Assembly: GCA_022562795.1 (NCBI GenBank)
Contig: JADFOP010000031.1
Location: forward strand, 1-26,252
From: Nitrospinota bacterium
GTDB lineage: Bacteria > JADFOP01
Reading direction: 5' to 3'
Length of the DNA stretch: 26,252 nt
In this document: positions 2,549-10,031 of the stretch, piece by piece
Layout of the letters: each line of letters opens with the position of its first letter
Position numbering within the stretch: the first letter of the stretch is position 1
The notes under the pieces: model-generated
Databases searched by the model: none
The model's input: only the letters and a program-made list of their open reading frames with translations
Told to the model about the DNA's origin: nothing
Made by a program: the position numbers and the translations under genes

Positions 2549-3517
2549 CTAGATATCAATTGAAACAATCTTCTTAATCAACAGGGCTCCGAGTATCACA
2601 AGCCCACCAGCGGTGTAAAGCATGATATTGCCGAGGGGGGTGGTAAAGAGCGGCTCCATGTAATTAGGGCTAAGGTAGTTGATAATAAAACCCATACCAA
2701 TTGGCAATAGTCCCAACAGCCAACCGCTCAAGCGTCCTTCACCCGTCAGGGCCTTGATATGGCCCCTGAGCTTGAAGCGCTCCCGAATTGTGTAGCTAAG
2801 TTTGTCCAAAACCTCGGTCAGATTGCTACCTACATCCCACTGGATGAGCACGCTGGTGACGAAGAGCTTCATGTCCATGTTGTCGCACCGGTGTAAGAGG
2901 TTCTACAGTGAGTCCTTCATGCTCACCCCCAACCGATTCTCCTCGTTGATTTTTCTAAATTCGGTGCTGATGGGAGCTGAAAACTCCTTGGCTACCACCT
3001 CGAAGGCCATTGAGAGAGCGAAACCCGTCCGCAGGCTGCGGACGATAGTGTCGAGCGCCTCGGGCAGCTGCTTCGTGAGCTTTGACATCCGGTGCCGCTT
3101 GGCCAATTTAAGGTACAACCAGGGCCCTATGATACCTGCGACAAGGCCCAGCAGAGCATAAAGAGGACTCTTGGTGACCACGAAAACCACCGAGGAGCAG
3201 CTCCAGGCGGCAATGACGACGAGGAGCAAGAAGCGGTCCAGCAACATCCTTGTGCCTGCCTGGTCGAGCAAGGTGTCAAGAGAATTGGAAAAGGGCAAAA
3301 GAGCAAGAAACTTGTGAACAGCAGGGTTTTTCGAAAAGACGTTGACCCAGAGGATGCCGCCGCCAGGCTTCTTTTCGGTGGCCCCGACCCGAATGGCCTG
3401 AAGGCTTTCTCTGATAGACTTTTCGGTCTTATCGGCCTTGCTGCGCATCTGTAGATAAATGGCCTCTCCGAGCAGCGCCACGGTAGCGAAGGCAAATAGG
3501 AAGAGAACGTTCTTCAT
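2549..3517 (-). pseudogene. tadB: Tad pilus platform protein TadB, interrupted by one in-frame amber codon
   Basis: Reading frame 3517 to 2549 gives one TadB-like protein of 322 residues except for a TAG at 2905-2903 (codon 205). Before it come two N-terminal membrane segments and a T2SSF start (LPEALDTIVRSLRTGFALSM, then NEENRLGVSMKDSL). After it, in the same frame, come NLLHRCDNMDMKLFVTSVLI, then ERFKLRGHIKAL and two membrane helices ending LLIKKIVSIDI. The family normally has Glu or a similar residue where the stop falls (pattern xAL-E-NLxxR), so a GAG-to-TAG or CAG-to-TAG change explains it. The ATG overlaps the tadA stop (TGATG). Restart at the ATG at 2878 is possible, but no good ribosome site precedes it. 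This could be a true pseudogene, a strain variant or a base-call error. Confidence 0.8.
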
Positions 3518-4878
3518 CAGGAACTTGAAACCTCTTTATGAACGGTGAAGGTGTTCTCGGGAAGATGCACCCCGAACGACTCCAGCCTGTCCATGCAGCG
3601 AGGGCGGATGCCCGTGGCCTGAAAGACCCCTACCACTGAACCGTTGTTATCCACCCCCAGTTGGCTAAAGATAAAGATATCCTGAGTTGTGAGGATATCC
3701 CCCTCCATCCCTGTAATCTCCGCGATGCGCGTCACTTTGCGCTTCCCGTCGGATAAGCGGTTCGCCTGGACGATGATGTCGAGGGCCGACCCTATCTGCT
3801 GACGGATAACCCTTTCGGCCAGGTCGAAGCCCGCCATAGTCACCATAGTCTCCAGCCGGGAAAGAGCGTCCCTGGTAGTGTTGGCGTGAATGGTGGTAAG
3901 GCTCCCATCGTGGCCGGTGTTCATGGCCTGGAGCATATCGAGGGCCTCCCCCGACCTGACCTCGCCTATAATTATACGGTCCGGCCGCATCCGAAGGGAG
4001 TTCCTCACCAGGTCGCGCTGAGTGACCTCGCCCTTGCCCTCGATGTTGGGAGGCCTCGTCTCAAGCCTCACGACATGCGGCTGCTGCAGCTGCAGCTCGG
4101 CGCTGTCCTCGATAGTGACGATGCGCTCGCCCTCGGGAATGGAGCCGGACAGGGCGTTAAGAAGAGTCGTCTTGCCGCTGCCCGTCCCGCCCGATATAAG
4201 TATGTTGAGCTTCGCCCGAACGCAACCGGCTAGAAAGGTCACCATCTCTTCCAAAATGCTATCGAACCGAACCAGGTCTTCAAACTTAAGCGGGTCGGTC
4301 CCAAACCGGCGAATGGAGAGAGTCGGCCCATCTATGGCCAGGGGCGGAATGATGGCATTGATACGGCTGCCGTCGGGAAGCCGGGCGTCCACCATCGGAG
4401 AGGACTCGTCGATACGACGCCCCACCGCCGAGACGATGCGGTTGATGATATTGAGCAGGTGCTCGTCGTTCTTAAACCGGACGTTGGTACGTTCGAGCAG
4501 GCCGTTGCGCTCGATCCAAACCGAATTGTAGTTGTTGACCAAGATGTCGCTGATGGTCGGATCGCTGAGGAGCGTCTCCAGGGGGCCGTAACCGAGGGCT
4601 TCGTTCAAAACCTCCCCGACGAGCCTCTCCCGCTCAATTTGGTTAAGCGGGACGTTCTCACCTTGGATTATCTGGGTAAGGGCCGAGCGGATTTCCCTCC
4701 TGATCTCCTCTTTGTCCAGGGCATGGAGGCTTACGAGATCGATGTTGTCGACGAGCTTCCAGTGAATCTCGCCCTTGAGCTTTTGATAGAGGTCGTCGCT
4801 CTCATGAGAGACTGGCTGGTCGTTATTCTCTCCCGCCGTGTCTTGAACCACTGACTGGCGAAGACGGCTCCTCAACAT
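3517..4878 (-). CDS. tadA: Tad pilus assembly ATPase TadA/CpaF
   Basis: This is a 453-residue secretion ATPase of the PulE/VirB11 superfamily that powers pilus polymerisation from the cytoplasmic face. Visible motifs: the N-terminal domain signature [20 protein letters not shown] (about 95-114), Walker [10 protein letters not shown] (230-238), Asp-box region ([10 protein letters not shown], 254-263), Walker B RIIIGEVR with Glu306 (301-308), and the His box TTIHANT with His331. Length matches CpaF proteins. The ATG is served by GGAGG inside the end of tadZ, with stop and start three bases apart. The 3' end overlaps the tadB start, so tadZ-tadA-tadB are translationally coupled. Confidence 0.95.
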
Positions 4879-4881
4879 GGG

Positions 4882-6057
4882 CTAACTCCCTCCTCTCTTC
4901 TTCAAGAAGCCTAAGAGACCCGAGCTCTCTTCTACCTCCGGCTTTACCTGCGTTAGAGCGGCGCACAGTGACGCAATCTCTTGGGTTAGTTTCGCCTTCG
5001 GGTAGGCTTCCTGTAGGAGCCTGCCGGTGTTGATGGCCTCCATCGTCTCCTGCTCCATATTACAGAGCGTAGCGGCGATGGGCCAATTCAAGGTCTTCTT
5101 GATATTCTTGACCGAAAAAACCTTCGCCTTTTTTGCGAACCGGTTCAAGACCACCTTGATCTTGGCTCTGTCATATCCAAGCTGTTCGAGGAGCTCGAGG
5201 CAGCGCTTGGTGTTTTTGAGGCCCGGCACCGTCTGAAGCGTAACGAGGACAATGGTGTCGGCGGAGTCCATGGCGGCCAGGAAAATGTCGTCAATGGCTT
5301 TTAGGCAGTCAACGACTATAAAGTCGAAGTGGCTGCGCAGGCTTTGAAGAACACGGGTGACGTGCTCGCCCGTCACCTCCTCGGCTCCCTCGTAGGACCT
5401 GGGAGTCCCCAGGACGAATAGGCCAGAGGCGTGTCTGGCCAGGGACGAATCGAGAAGCTCCCCGTCGATCCGGCTTATGTTCTGGATGAAATCTGTAACT
5501 GTAAAGTTGGCCTCCAGATTCAGAAAATAGGAGACGTCTCCCTTGTAGAGGTCCAAATCGAAGAGGATGCTTCTCTGCTTTGGACTCCTGGCTAAATAGC
5601 CGGCCAGGTTAGTCGCCATAGTGGTGGTGCCGCAGCCCCCCAGCAGGCTGAATACGCTGATGACCTTGCCCCCCTTGTCCCTGTTCTCCTGCGCCTTGCA
5701 TATCGATCGGATCGTACGCTCAACGACCTCCTTGTCTTCTGGCAAAACGAAGAAGTCACGAACTCCGAGCCGCACCGCCTTAAGGATGAGGTCGGGGCTT
5801 TTCTCCTTGCTAAGAGCGAATACATGCATCTCCGCATGCTCTACCTTCAACTGTTCGATGATGGCCAAGGCCTTGTCGGGGTCCTGGCTCAAATCGACGA
5901 AGAGAACGGCAGGTTTTTTGTCCGTGACCAACATGTAGCCCGATTGGTAGTCGGCAGCGTTGCCCACGACCTTAATCGCGGACTCCACGGACTTTCCCAT
6001 CTCCTCCCTAATTGCAGCATCGGCTGAAATGATGACGCAACCTTCTTGGCTCACCAT
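4882..6057 (-). CDS. cpaE: Tad pilus localisation ATPase-like protein TadZ/CpaE
   Basis: The 391-residue product has two domains. Residues 1-120 resemble a response-regulator receiver fold (VLFVDLSQDPDKALAIIEQL, then AVRLGVRDFFVLPEDKE). Residues 131-375 are a ParA/MinD-type domain with P-loop-like LLGGCGTTTMATNLA (about 138-152), switch-like ILFDLDLYKGD and Walker B-like FIVVDCLKA. The P-loop lacks both the signature lysine and the usual GKT/GKS; Thr occupies that place, as in a number of CpaE/TadZ proteins. TadZ marks the pole or site where the Tad machine assembles. It lies between cpaB and tadA in the usual Tad order. The ribosome site is weak (AAAGAGAG region). Confidence 0.9.
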   Translation of the reverse strand: MVSQEGCVIISADAAIREEMGKSVESAIKVVGNAADYQSGYMLVTDKKPAVLFVDLSQDPDKALAIIEQLKVEHAEMHVFALSKEKSPDLILKAVRLGVRDFFVLPEDKEVVERTIRSICKAQENRDKGGKVISVFSLLGGCGTTTMATNLAGYLARSPKQRSILFDLDLYKGDVSYFLNLEANFTVTDFIQNISRIDGELLDSSLARHASGLFVLGTPRSYEGAEEVTGEHVTRVLQSLRSHFDFIVVDCLKAIDDIFLAAMDSADTIVLVTLQTVPGLKNTKRCLELLEQLGYDRAKIKVVLNRFAKKAKVFSVKNIKKTLNWPIAATLCNMEQETMEAINTGRLLQEAYPKAKLTQEIASLCAALTQVKPEVEESSGLLGFLKKRGGS

Positions 6058-6076: not shown

Positions 6077-6916
6077 CTAGAAGTGTTCTAATCCACGCGT
6101 AGAGCCTCTAATCAATTCAACAGTCACCGGCGGAGGCAATGAAGGGGCTGATGCTGGCTCAACTTTGGGCTTTGGCTTAGGCGGCGTCCAGCCGATGAGG
6201 CGGACAGGAGTCGAGCCTTTTGTATTGACCGGAGATTGATCGAGCGTGTTGCGCATAGCCAGCTGAATGTCGTTGCGGCTCGCCAACGCGAGCTTTTCAG
6301 CATCGGCAGGACCCACCAAGAGGGTTACGGCGCTCACGCGCTTGGGCTTGCCATTCTCACGGGTGATCTCTTGACCGACGGCAAGCACAGGCACACGCTG
6401 AAGAACCGTTTTGGTAATAACACCCTCGCCCTTTATTGGCTCCATGGTCACGATAACATCCACGAGGTCGCCTGGCTTGATGAAGCCCGCCACGCCGATG
6501 ATCTCGTTAACCCGGACGGCCACGGCCCGTTGACCCTTGGGGATTATCGCCGCCAGTCCCGTCCCTCCGCCTTTCGGAATCAGGTGACCTTCCAAGATGG
6601 GCTCGCCGGCGAGAATCCTTCGCGCCGCCGCCCGTCCCACCACTTTCTTGGAGTCCTGGAAGGCACCCTTAAGGAGGGCCTTCTTCGGCCAAGGAGCAGT
6701 TTTCACATCACTAGTGGTGACGGTCATACCCGGTGCAATTTCGCGCTCGGCGACCGCCAAGGTGGTGAAGCCCTCGCGGGCCAGCTTATCCCTGAGAGCG
6801 GCCGACATTTGACTCTCCCGCAGATTCATGTAGCGGGTCATCAAAAAGATGGTCAGAAAGCCGGCTGCAACGGCCCCTACGAGTACGAGGACTCGAAGGT
6901 TTATAAAGCGTCCCAT
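6077..6916 (-). CDS. cpaB: Tad pilus assembly protein CpaB/RcpC
   Basis: The 279-residue product has an N-terminal membrane anchor (about residues 8-27), a SAF domain (about 51-112) and the CpaB/RcpC region with the family signature GVAGFIKPGDLVDVIVTM. After this comes TVLQRVPVLAVGQEI, and a proline-rich tail closes the protein. CpaB/RcpC is a periplasmic, membrane-anchored protein that associates with the secretin CpaC and may bind peptidoglycan through its SAF domain. A strong ribosome site (GGAGGAGGAGG) directly precedes the ATG. It lies 24 bases after cpaA and 19 before cpaE, on the same strand. Confidence 0.92.
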   Translation of the reverse strand: MGRFINLRVLVLVGAVAAGFLTIFLMTRYMNLRESQMSAALRDKLAREGFTTLAVAEREIAPGMTVTTSDVKTAPWPKKALLKGAFQDSKKVVGRAAARRILAGEPILEGHLIPKGGGTGLAAIIPKGQRAVAVRVNEIIGVAGFIKPGDLVDVIVTMEPIKGEGVITKTVLQRVPVLAVGQEITRENGKPKRVSAVTLLVGPADAEKLALASRNDIQLAMRNTLDQSPVNTKGSTPVRLIGWTPPKPKPKVEPASAPSLPPPVTVELIRGSTRGLEHF

Positions 6917-6940: not shown

Positions 6941-7450
6941 TTAAAGTGGAGAGCCCCAAATAACAAAGCCCAGCGTGCCAGCGGCAATTGCTAGGCTGTA
7001 GGGCATGTGCGGTTTATCTCGGGAAGCTAGCGGGTAACGCCCCCGAAAAGTTATGAAGCAGACCAGGTCCTCGTAGATGGTCTTCATGAAGTTGGCGCCC
7101 TTTCCACCCGAGGCTACTATCATCCCCAGAGCTAAGACACCTCCCGCCAGTCCGCTATAAACCGTGGCGATGAGGATGTTCTTGGGGCCGAGCCATGCCC
7201 CCAGGCCCGCCAGCAGTTTCACGTCGCCTCCGCCCATCCCTCCGAGCATGTATGGGACGAGGAGAACCCCTAAGCCAACGGAGAGGCCAAGGGCGCTGGA
7301 CTTCAAACCAGGAAGTCCAGTAGTGGCCAGGTGGAAGACAAGACCGCCCACGGCTGCGGGCACGGTAAGGACATTGGGAATCTTCCGTGCCCAAAGGTCC
7401 GTCCCCACTGCGATGGCGAGAATTATGAGGATGACGATATTTGTACTCAT
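6941..7450 (-). CDS. cpaA: Tad prepilin peptidase TadV/CpaA (A24 family)
   Basis: The 169-residue polytopic membrane protein matches the short A24 peptidases of Tad loci, which lack the N-terminal methylase domain of PilD. The two catalytic aspartates are visible: Asp18 in AVGTDLWARKIPN and Asp76 in the GxGD-type motif GGMGGGDVKLL. It should cut the leader from the Flp pilin encoded just upstream. The ATG has only a poor ribosome site (AAGG directly next to it), which with the hairpin in the flp-cpaA gap may keep its level well below that of the pilin. Confidence 0.92.
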   Translation of the reverse strand: MSTNIVILIILAIAVGTDLWARKIPNVLTVPAAVGGLVFHLATTGLPGLKSSALGLSVGLGVLLVPYMLGGMGGGDVKLLAGLGAWLGPKNILIATVYSGLAGGVLALGMIVASGGKGANFMKTIYEDLVCFITFRGRYPLASRDKPHMPYSLAIAAGTLGFVIWGSPL

Positions 7451-7481
7451 CCTTGCTTCGAAGGCTCCATCAAAAGATTTC

Positions 7482-7522
7482 AGGCAAGGCCCACAGCGAC
7501 GGGGACCAAAAGCCGCTTGCCT
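7482..7522 (-). terminator. Possible attenuating hairpin between flp and cpaA
   Basis: AGGCAAG (7482-7488) pairs with CTTGCCT (7516-7522), a perfect 7-bp stem with a 27-base loop. Read on the minus strand, the stem is followed by TGAAATCTTTTG, a modestly T-rich stretch. The loop is long and the T-run is broken, so full termination is unlikely. Partial termination after an abundant pilin transcript would make sense. Confidence 0.25.
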
Positions 7523-7556
7523 TTCCCCGAGCGCTGCAGGCCGAAAAGAACCTCGT

Positions 7557-7742
7557 TTAGTTCGATGACGGAATCGTCGCGCTGAGCGTGGTGTTCACGC
7601 CGCCGAACACGCCGTTCAACGTAGTACCGAGGGTCTGAACGGTCAGAATGATGGCAGCCGCAATGAGGGCTACCAAGAGGCCGTACTCAACCGCCGAGGC
7701 CCCATCTTCGTCCTGCATGAACATCTTGAGGTGCTTTATCAT
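7557..7742 (-). CDS. flp: Flp-type major pilin
   Basis: This is a 61-residue prepilin. The short leader MIKHLKMFMQDEDG ends in glycine, followed by ASAVEYGLL, the Flp signature with Glu at +5 and Tyr at +6 of the mature protein. A hydrophobic helix rich in Ala, Ile and Leu follows, then a short tail. The processed pilin would be 47 residues, normal for Flp. The ATG at 7742 is chosen because GGGAGGAAGG lies about six bases upstream and because the leader has the right length; a longer frame upstream has no support. It is the first gene of the minus-strand Tad operon and lies about 120 bases downstream of a sigma-54 promoter. Confidence 0.95.
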   Translation of the reverse strand: MIKHLKMFMQDEDGASAVEYGLLVALIAAAIILTVQTLGTTLNGVFGGVNTTLSATIPSSN

Positions 7743-7860
7743 GGTGTCCTTCCTCCCAAAGCTTATTGTGCGATCTAACTTCTGGAAGGGTCGGAATTTC
7801 TGAGCACCCCCAAGGCACCCATTCCCTTCCACTTTGATCGGCTATTCAGCTATAGAGTTT

Positions 7861-7876
7861 AGCAAGGCCCGTGCCA
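7861..7876 (-). promoter_or_regulatory. Sigma-54 (RpoN) promoter of the flp-tad operon
   Basis: On the minus strand the sequence is TGGCACGGGCCTTGCT. It matches the published consensus TGGCACRNNNNTTGCW at every fixed position, with -24 GG and -12 GC in correct spacing. It points at flp; the start of transcription would fall near 7850, giving a leader of roughly 105-110 bases. Sigma-54 control of pilins is well known from PilS/PilR-regulated pilA, and here a PilS/NtrB-like kinase is encoded just upstream. Confidence 0.75.
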
Positions 7877-7982
7877 CGCTTGGTCCCTGCCTTCCCATAT
7901 TATCGTACCGGCATGGATACAGCCTTGGAACTGCTTGATAATAAAACAGATAGGAAATGGACCGGGCAGCGTAGCACCCCTC

Positions 7983-7998
7983 AGCATTTCAGAATGCT
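7983..7998. promoter_or_regulatory. Small dyad, candidate enhancer-binding site
   Basis: AGCATT-TCAG-AATGCT is a perfect 6-bp inverted repeat. It lies about 110-135 bases upstream of the sigma-54 promoter, a typical distance for the binding site of a sigma-54 activator. The role is inferred from spacing and symmetry only; a 6-bp dyad can arise by chance. Confidence 0.3.
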
Positions 7999-8157
7999 TG
8001 TTTTGGTTGGAGCTGGGATGCTATCTTTTCGTAAAGGACTAGAGGATATGATCAAAGTATCCCGCTTACTTTAGGATCCCTTCCACATTCACAAGACCGT
8101 AGAGAGGCTAACTTTTTGGTCCCATACAGCGCCCCGGTCGAGAATCAATCGGGGTTA

Positions 8158-8277
8158 TTAGGTCCCATCGAGCAACCCAACCTTTGTCATCAACGCCATC
8201 TCTAGATAATCGGGATTGGACTGTTTAGCAATAATATCAAAGGCCCCACCGGTCACTTAGCCCTTTATCCCCATCAT
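8158..8277 (-). pseudogene. Possible remnant of a response-regulator gene after the sensor kinase
   Basis: An ATG overlaps the kinase stop codon (ATGA), the usual layout for a kinase followed by its regulator, but the frame ends after six codons (MMGIKG, TAA). The same frame then continues GGAFDIIAKQSNPDYLEMAL and ends MTKVGLLDGT. This resembles the end of a receiver domain, where GAFDYIxKPFDPDxL around the conserved Lys is typical; here the usual Lys-Pro is Lys-Gln. No phosphorylated Asp region or output domain is present. I read it as a regulator gene with most of its length deleted. The similarity is short, so chance cannot be excluded. Confidence 0.35.
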
Positions 8278-10031
8278 TCATCTTCCGTGCCCAATCGGAC
8301 GACGAAGGCCGCGCCACCGTCGGGGACGTTTTCGGCCCAGATCGACCCGCCGTGAGCCTCGACGATGCCTTGACAGATCGAAAGCCCCAAGCCCGTCCCC
8401 TTCCCCTCGTCCTTTGTTGTGAAGAAGGGGTCGAATAAATTCTTCAAGTCCTCAGTGGCGATGCCCTCGCCTGTATCTTCGACCCGAAGCTCAATAAACA
8501 TCTGCCCATTGGTCTGGACCGCCTTGGTGGTGAGTGAGAGGCGGCCCCCGTCTGGCATGGCGTCCTTCGCGTTGGTTAGCAGATTGAGGACCACCTGCTG
8601 GAGCTGGTCCTGGTCGACTAAGCCCCGTGGCAGTTCATCTGAGAGCTTCGACTCCACTTCAATGTTTTGTATTCGTAGACCGTGTTCGACGAGGCTGAGA
8701 GTGCGCTTAATCGATTCGTTGAAATCGATAAGGCGGCGCTCGGGCTCTCGCTGGCGGGAGAAGGAGAGGAGGTCGCGGGTGATCTTCGCAATCCGGTTGG
8801 CATGCTTCTCCATGATTCGCAGGCGTCGAGTAACCTCCGGGGGAGTGTCGGGATTGCCGATCAACGTGTAGAGACGCAGAATGATGACGTTCAGGGGGTT
8901 CAGTATTTCGTGAGAGACGCCGGCGGTCAGCAGACCCACAGAGGCCATCTTCTCTGCGCGGACGAGCTGCTCCTCCGACCTCTTGCGCTCACGGAGATCC
9001 TTGCTGAAACCCACGGCCCCAACCTCTTGGCCCTCCTCATCGTAGAGAATGGACGCCGAAATCAACACCGGGATGCGGGTCTCGTCCTTCGCACGGAAGG
9101 TGGTCTCGAAAGCCGAGACCGTACCGCCCCCCTCGCGCATCCGGCGCATCACCTCTTTCGCATCCTCCTCGCTCTCGTAGAGCACCGGACCTTTTCTGCC
9201 GATGACCTCCTCACGCCGATAGCCCGTGAGGGCCTCGGCGCCCTTGTTGAAGAGCACAACCTTTCCTGCCTTATCGGTCTTAACGATTGCGTCTGTGGAA
9301 CTCTCGATGAGTCTTTCGAGATTTTGCTTGGCCTGAACCAGCTCTTTTTGGGATTTATTAAGGTTGTCCTCGGTCTTGGCCATTATAAACGCCATTAGAA
9401 TAATTCCCACCATCAGGGCAAAACCTACAACAAAGAGGAAGGTGGAATAGCGCCTGACTTGCCTATCAAAGCCTCGTATTCTGTTTTTGATATTGTAGTA
9501 AGTCTCAAGCGCGCCAACTACTGAACCGTCTATCAAGATTGGAACGTTCGTCCGAACTATATAAACGGTCTCTTTCTTGCCCTCCGAATCTTCTATGTTT
9601 TTTCGTAAAAGATTAGTTTGAGCAACCCCTTTGGATATGCTGTCGGTAAAGTATCTTTCTCGATTTATTTCTCCTCTCTCTCTCGGATCGGAAGAATAAA
9701 TAGTATTGCCTGATTTCGTGTAAATCTTCAGCTTCATCACGTCGAGTCTGTTTTCTATCTGTCTGACCTGCCTTAAGAGATCGCCTTGAAGGTCGGCTCT
9801 TTTCAATTCTACCTTGCCTGATCCGAGGGACAACGCTATGTCACGCGCTGAACCCCCTGCTTCAATTTTAATTTCGTTAATTGTAGACCTAGTCACTACA
9901 GGATTGATGATACTAATATTTATCGCCGAATACGTCGTTATTACCAATAGGGATAAGATGAGAATGATCCTTAAGAACTTGTTCTTGGAATAAATACGCA
10001 GGTTTTTTATTGTCTCGCGTATTTTATTCAC
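8274..10031 (-). CDS. PAS-containing membrane sensor histidine kinase, NtrB/PilS-like
   Basis: The 585-residue product runs in this order: membrane helix (about 20-42), periplasmic sensing region (43-195, with IYTKSGNTIYSSDP and RYFTDSISKG as in Cache-type folds), second helix (195-217), coiled linker, and a PAS domain (about 237-350). A HisKA domain follows with VSHEILNPLN, His374 being the phosphorylation site. The HATPase_c domain has N box NLLTNAKDAM (483-492), DTGEGI (519-524) and GTGLGLS (545-551). The start is GTG, preceded by GAGGGGGAAG. No intact partner regulator lies in the window; the frame directly after the stop looks like a regulator remnant. The position upstream of a sigma-54 promoter suggests a past or present role in pilus control. 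The N-terminal ~230 codons look more AT-rich than the catalytic part. Confidence 0.88.
   Translation of the reverse strand: MNKIRETIKNLRIYSKNKFLRIILILSLLVITTYSAINISIINPVVTRSTINEIKIEAGGSARDIALSLGSGKVELKRADLQGDLLRQVRQIENRLDVMKLKIYTKSGNTIYSSDPRERGEINRERYFTDSISKGVAQTNLLRKNIEDSEGKKETVYIVRTNVPILIDGSVVGALETYYNIKNRIRGFDRQVRRYSTFLFVVGFALMVGIILMAFIMAKTEDNLNKSQKELVQAKQNLERLIESSTDAIVKTDKAGKVVLFNKGAEALTGYRREEVIGRKGPVLYESEEDAKEVMRRMREGGGTVSAFETTFRAKDETRIPVLISASILYDEEGQEVGAVGFSKDLRERKRSEEQLVRAEKMASVGLLTAGVSHEILNPLNVIILRLYTLIGNPDTPPEVTRRLRIMEKHANRIAKITRDLLSFSRQREPERRLIDFNESIKRTLSLVEHGLRIQNIEVESKLSDELPRGLVDQDQLQQVVLNLLTNAKDAMPDGGRLSLTTKAVQTNGQMFIELRVEDTGEGIATEDLKNLFDPFFTTKDEGKGTGLGLSICQGIVEAHGGSIWAENVPDGGAAFVVRLGTEDE

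Follow-up and report, generated by a model that had tools for sequence, protein, structure and literature searches.

The element TGGCACGGGCCTTGCT at positions 7861-7876 on the minus strand of the window, i.e., the whole 26,252-nucleotide stretch of Nitrospinota DNA analyzed here, is very probably the -24/-12 element of a genuine sigma-54 promoter that would serve flp and also, at least partly, the downstream genes tadV-cpaB-tadZ-tadA-tadB-tadC, with an enhancer, an activator and a histidine kinase completing the explanation. Part of this best explanation is that the promoter module has been copied before at least four other flp genes of the same genome, with one additional copy at a contig end, and that one sigma-54 regulon comprises several pilins together with the Tad machinery. 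In what follows, the window's own genome, assembled in 84 contigs, is referred to as G000, in which the window is contig C31, a same-genus relative as G001, and a member of the class as G002.

A consensus sigma-54 element upstream of flp

The earlier note on this DNA had placed an exact sigma-54 consensus at this position, approximately 120 bases before flp, and this was confirmed. The element has 0 mismatches to TGGCACG-N4-TTGCW and ends 119 bases short of the flp start codon (ATG at 7742), before which stands GGGAGGAAGG. By matrix scan, it attained a score of 19.9, the matrix maximum, and was the only site in the 26-kb window to exceed 13 of 19.9, with the runner-up at 12.6; these scores are relative only, given that the matrix is approximate, with weights set after the published consensus. 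If the C of GC is taken as -12, transcription of flp is predicted to start near 7850, giving a leader of approximately 108 nt. No RNA family was identified by Rfam within 7400-8350. An exact consensus match within the window alone is unlikely to arise by chance but is not proof, and it is the genome-wide and comparative tests that decide whether the site is judged to be real.

The rpoN gene, the presence of which the earlier note had asked to be checked, was found in G000, with a match to PF04552 and a TIGR02395 score of 449 bits versus a cutoff of 277. In addition, nine regions of the genome strongly matched the sigma-54 activator domain, and the GAFTGA loop was intact in seven of the eight activators examined. 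Exact consensus sites numbered seven genome-wide, compared with one for the backward-read pattern that was used as a control. Three of the seven lie before flp genes and one before glnB-glnA, a textbook sigma-54 target. When up to one mismatch was allowed, 30 sites were found on both strands, versus 19 in the control.

Other sites in the genome deserve mention in their own right. Near-consensus sites precede the predicted start of lptC by 47-53 bp in both genomes of the genus, i.e., TGGCACAGAAATTGCT (L130, G000 C4:67505-67520, minus strand) and TGGCACAGATATTGCT (L202, G001 C663:14973-14988, plus strand). As the gene order in G000 is lptC ... lptB-rpoN, so that the lptC with such a site is followed by lptB and rpoN, the latter may lie within its own regulon in this genome. 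Two more exact sites, at L016 (G000 C1:8578) and L018 (C10:5024), stand before a 68-aa ORF and a FecR-like ORF; common TTGACGCA motifs are present upstream of both, and these sites may represent a second regulon.

The promoter recurs at other flp genes of the genome

G000 has seven Flp/Fap genes, and at six of them a site with no more than one mismatch is oriented toward flp and lies 37-136 bp before the start used, against an expectation of 0.007 calculated from the genome-wide site density (30, both strands). The sites are exact at the flp genes of the window, C10 and C19, and have one mismatch at those of C78, C75 and C4 (TGGCACATAATTTGCT). The flp gene on C30 is the only one of the seven without a site at this level. 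An extra copy of the promoter is present at the end of C54, where the flp gene would fall past the contig.

These promoters are partly recent copies of one another, or homologous, with that of the window being 74% identical to that of C19 and 71% to that of C75 over 218 bp. Their agreement is thus not independent, and the probability based on 0.007 overstates independence; when homologous promoters were counted as one group, the chance of the observed pattern was approximately 5e-6. Duplication explains part of the repetition. The C10 and C78 promoters, however, have diverged outside the elements: both are 80-82% identical to the window promoter inside the elements and about half identical outside (82% and 52%, respectively, for C10). 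C10 (L119) also contains the rest of the Tad system, i.e., flp, tadE, tadG-like genes with DUF7305 and a divergent rcpA secretin gene, with its own exact sigma-54 promoter. A weak site on this contig, TGGTACATAATTTGCA (score 13.3), faces rcpA and is only suggestive.

Architecture of the flp promoters

Five promoters (C31, C10, C19, C78 and C75) were aligned over 190 bp upstream, with dyad coordinates counted from the first base of the -24 element. The most conserved 16-base segments were a distal dyad block and the -24/-12 element itself. Among these five paralogous promoters, 14 of the 18 columns in the block of the candidate activator site (UAS) and 10 of the 16 in -24/-12 were invariant, compared with 50 of 221 elsewhere. 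The dyad, with the consensus TTGAT-N6-ATCAA, starts at -178 to -180 in six promoters, i.e., the five that were aligned and that of C54. In the window it takes the form of an imperfect dyad, TTGAT-CATATC-CTCTA, at 8040-8055 on the minus strand.

Between this candidate UAS and the -24/-12 element is an IHF-like site, TATCAAGCAGTTC (7928-7940, minus strand), which matches WATCAANNNNTTR with one mismatch and is held within a longer conserved block, TTTTATTATCAAGCAGTTCCA, at 7926-7946. The IHF consensus lies at -62 to -64, being exact in C10, C75 and C54 and having one mismatch elsewhere, including the window; in several promoters, the IHF-like reading is off consensus at the last base. An IHF-like site is found at the same distance in the G001 C133 and C33 promoters, both of which are without a dyad at -178 to -180. 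A dyad-like match at -358 in C33 was not counted, as it falls within the coding sequence of the activator. In the C4 promoter, the -24/-12 element occurs without the dyad/IHF-like layout. With respect to IHF itself, the beta subunit was detected in G000 above the curated cutoff, while the protein closest to IHF alpha scored slightly under the cutoff. The order of these putative elements, i.e., dyad, IHF-like site and -24/-12, is the classical enhancer-promoter layout, in which an IHF site is frequent though not required.

Candidate kinases and activators

The candidate sensor is a membrane histidine kinase, encoded upstream of flp at 8274-10031 on the minus strand, with two predicted transmembrane (TM) segments (by hydropathy) and PAS, HisKA and HATPase domains. 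On the basis of the two TM segments, we rejected its identity as PilS. Relatives of this kinase flank the flp gene on C75 (62% and 88% identical) and occur on C82 (57% identical), where the kinase gene is directly followed by that of a receiver-AAA+ activator, cut by the contig end ahead of its HTH. A related pair is found on G001 C33, in which the gene for a kinase with 61% full-length identity to that of the window overlaps the gene for an activator, itself 74% identical to that of C82; this activator is followed by an IHF-like block and TGGCACCGACTTTGCA, and the gene behind the site is a 69-aa ORF, not flp. Single receivers that are 50-58% identical to the C82 receiver adjoin flp at C75, C4 and G001 C133.

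A further activator, on C19 (L115:4953-7259), lies directly upstream of an flp gene with an exact site and has the domain order REC-PAS-GGDEF-AAA+-HTH. Its ATPase part is 92% identical to that of the C82 activator over 151 aa, and its ATPase and HTH are 75% identical to those of a C3 activator over 353 aa, the GAFTGA motif being intact in all three proteins. Within the GGDEF domain of the C19 activator, the RxxD motif is intact and the active site is degenerate, with KGEEL instead of GGEEF. On C3 (L117:4383-8610), the C19-type activator has as neighbours a CcmP-like microcompartment shell gene, an aldehyde dehydrogenase gene and a TadG-like gene that shares 67% identity with one of the C10 tad locus.

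No complete activator gene was found to be linked to the window kinase. The pairing of this kinase with the C82/C19-type activator family is nevertheless well supported by gene neighbourhood, and phosphotransfer between the two is predicted. An NtrC-type activator would bind the dyad at 8040-8055, IHF would bend the DNA at about 7934, and the ATPase of the activator would open the sigma-54 polymerase sitting at -24/-12. The activator most likely comes from the small paralogous family comprising those of C82, C19 and perhaps C3, and would be phosphorylated by the kinase family that includes the product of the gene at 8274-10031. Given that this promoter layout recurs before most of the other flp genes of the genome, pilus production is probably switched on by this shared sensor/activator family. 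As a tentative extension of this model, one dyad/IHF/-24/-12 cassette may have spread before at least five Flp genes, accompanied by duplicated genes for kinases, for receivers that stand alone and for activators with a common ATPase/DNA-binding half and different sensor halves. The pilin promoters could then be the meeting point of several signals, c-di-GMP possibly among them, that set which Flp pilins are made, together with the Tad machine.

A genuine sigma-54 promoter might instead respond to another activator, i.e., the NtrC of C18 or one of the activators of C43, in which case the Tad system would follow a nitrogen or global signal and not the local kinase family. The C18 activator is indeed near NtrC (TIGR01818 score of 531.8 versus a cutoff of 558.6), C43 has three further activators and, as described above, glnB-glnA has an exact site of its own. 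The glnB promoter, however, is without the flp-type dyad TTGAT-N6-ATCAA, while a C19-type activator is encoded directly upstream of one flp gene and kinases and receivers from the same families occur on either side of flp genes, all of which makes control by such an outside activator unlikely.

Extent of the operon

The flp gene (7557-7742, minus strand) encodes a Flp/Fap pilin of 61 aa (PF04964, E 4.5e-17). It is followed on the same strand by genes for a tadV-type prepilin peptidase (6941-7450; PF01478), CpaB/RcpC (6077-6916; PF16976), a TadZ/CpaE-like protein with a degenerate receiver and a ParA-type ATPase (4882-6057; PF13614, PF00072), the TadA/CpaF ATPase (3517-4878; PF00437), which is 73% identical in the same-genus relative, TadB (2549-3517) and TadC (1584-2537; PF00482). 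With these, the Flp/Tad (type IVc) locus set of flp, prepilin peptidase, CpaB, TadZ, TadA, TadB and TadC is complete. The tadB gene has one in-frame stop codon (2903-2905) and is uninterrupted in G001; the stop may impair the encoded machine, or it may reflect an error in the assembly at this base.

The proposal of the earlier note that the whole Tad operon depends on an activator held in part. The promoter is directed at flp, and we infer that it extends its control to the whole operon. Against this, flp and tadV are separated by a stable RNA hairpin (7488-7542, minus strand; -46.5 kcal/mol for 7455-7556, z -2.8), which could possibly act as a partial terminator or as an mRNA stabilizer, the transcript past flp being lowered or protected. 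Moreover, the kinase gene lies on the same strand as flp with approximately 530 bp between them, and since no terminator-like site was found on the minus strand in this gap, read-through from the kinase gene into flp is possible. The -24/-12 element may thus be real and provide a conditional boost, with flp being transcribed mainly by kinase read-through or from an unrecognized sigma-70 promoter. We consider this improbable in view of the conserved enhancer architecture and of the gap itself, which has no sigma-70-like match on the minus strand. That TGGCACGGGCCTTGCT is a chance match or a functionless fossil is a very remote prospect, for although one-mismatch sites in the rest of the genome occur at close to background frequency (30 in all versus 19 in the control), sites are enriched at flp genes and the elements are selectively conserved between diverged copies.

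Conservation in other genomes

Searches of the genus, order and phylum reached two other genomes only, the phylum being represented by three genomes in the searched collection. The expectation that relatives would keep the element, and in the same place, was borne out to a limited extent. In addition to the other flp genes of G000, a site is present before the C133 flp of G001 (TGGCACCGAACTTGCT) and at rcpA in this relative, while three of its four flp genes are without one. The G001 tad locus, on C399, contains tadE, tadV, cpaB, tadZ, tadA, tadB and tadC, with rcpA on the other strand; there is no flp in front of the tad operon and no strong site at the operon start. The single strong site on this contig points at rcpA and has a related upstream block. 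Based on the sites at the C133 flp and the C399 rcpA, the genus is predicted to keep sigma-54 control of Tad components, but not the exact linkage of promoter to operon. Neither flp nor tadA was found in G002, which cannot therefore inform conservation.

Beyond the phylum, a survey of 80 Tad loci yielded 32 flp genes, which were analyzed by matrix scan. A strong site, TGGCACAGCCATTGCT, was detected at one of the 32, i.e., 54 bp before the flp gene of a Candidatus Binatia locus (L053:2640), together with three weaker sites, versus one on the reverse strand. With a single strong site in this sample, a widespread sigma-54 rule for flp was rejected.

Comparison with known systems

The principle of a sigma-54-controlled Flp/Tad operon is already known from Desulfovibrio vulgaris, in which the Flp pilin genes DORF39640-DVU2116, with cpa/tad genes behind them, are among the targets of the sigma-54-dependent regulator DVU2114, as are DVU3342-3345 (PMC3333781). 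The sigma-54 regulome of this organism includes DORF39640-DVU2129 (PMC4641369). The statement in the earlier note that an RpoN promoter at a Tad locus is much less described was a fair one, but a promoter of this kind had thus already been published. The novelty lies in the lineage, in the recurrence of the promoter and in the family of kinases and activators. As is predicted here, the D. vulgaris activator is a sigma-54 activator of the two-component type aimed at Flp pilin and tad/cpa genes. Unlike the DVU2114 regulon, the system described here has its promoter module, which includes an IHF-like site and the TTGAT-N6-ATCAA dyad, at several flp genes, and would involve a number of paralogous kinases and activators.

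A histidine kinase and an NtrC-type activator likewise act on a sigma-54 pilin promoter in the PilS/PilR systems of type IVa pilA (Pseudomonas, Geobacter and Myxococcus). Here, in contrast, the pilin is of the Flp/Tad class. PilS, moreover, spans the membrane six times ahead of its PAS domain, while the window kinase has a large extracytoplasmic part and is predicted to contain two TM segments. Nif-type enhancer promoters have the same order of elements (UAS, IHF, -24/-12) at similar spacing, but differ from the flp promoters in dyad sequence and target genes. Two-component control of flp/tad is also exerted by PprB at the P. aeruginosa tad locus and by a system in Pectobacterium. PprB is not known to be a sigma-54 activator. 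The Pectobacterium regulator is of the OmpR type, again not a sigma-54 activator (PMC3767616). We also sought a direct RpoN effect on flp/tad for Pseudomonas fluorescens, in which none is listed.

The departure from these known systems is the putative use of a single enhancer-promoter cassette at several flp genes, in combination with a duplicated kinase/receiver/activator family that includes a GGDEF activator. Our literature search found no paper on such a replicated cassette architecture, this being weak evidence that none exists. There are few organisms in which the control of Tad pili is known, and in this uncultured lineage, a whole set of Flp pilins appears to be under one activator-dependent promoter type, for which regulator candidates and DNA sites for testing can now be named. 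Together with its precedent in Desulfovibrio, this suggests a wider, if scattered, distribution of sigma-54 control of Tad pili.
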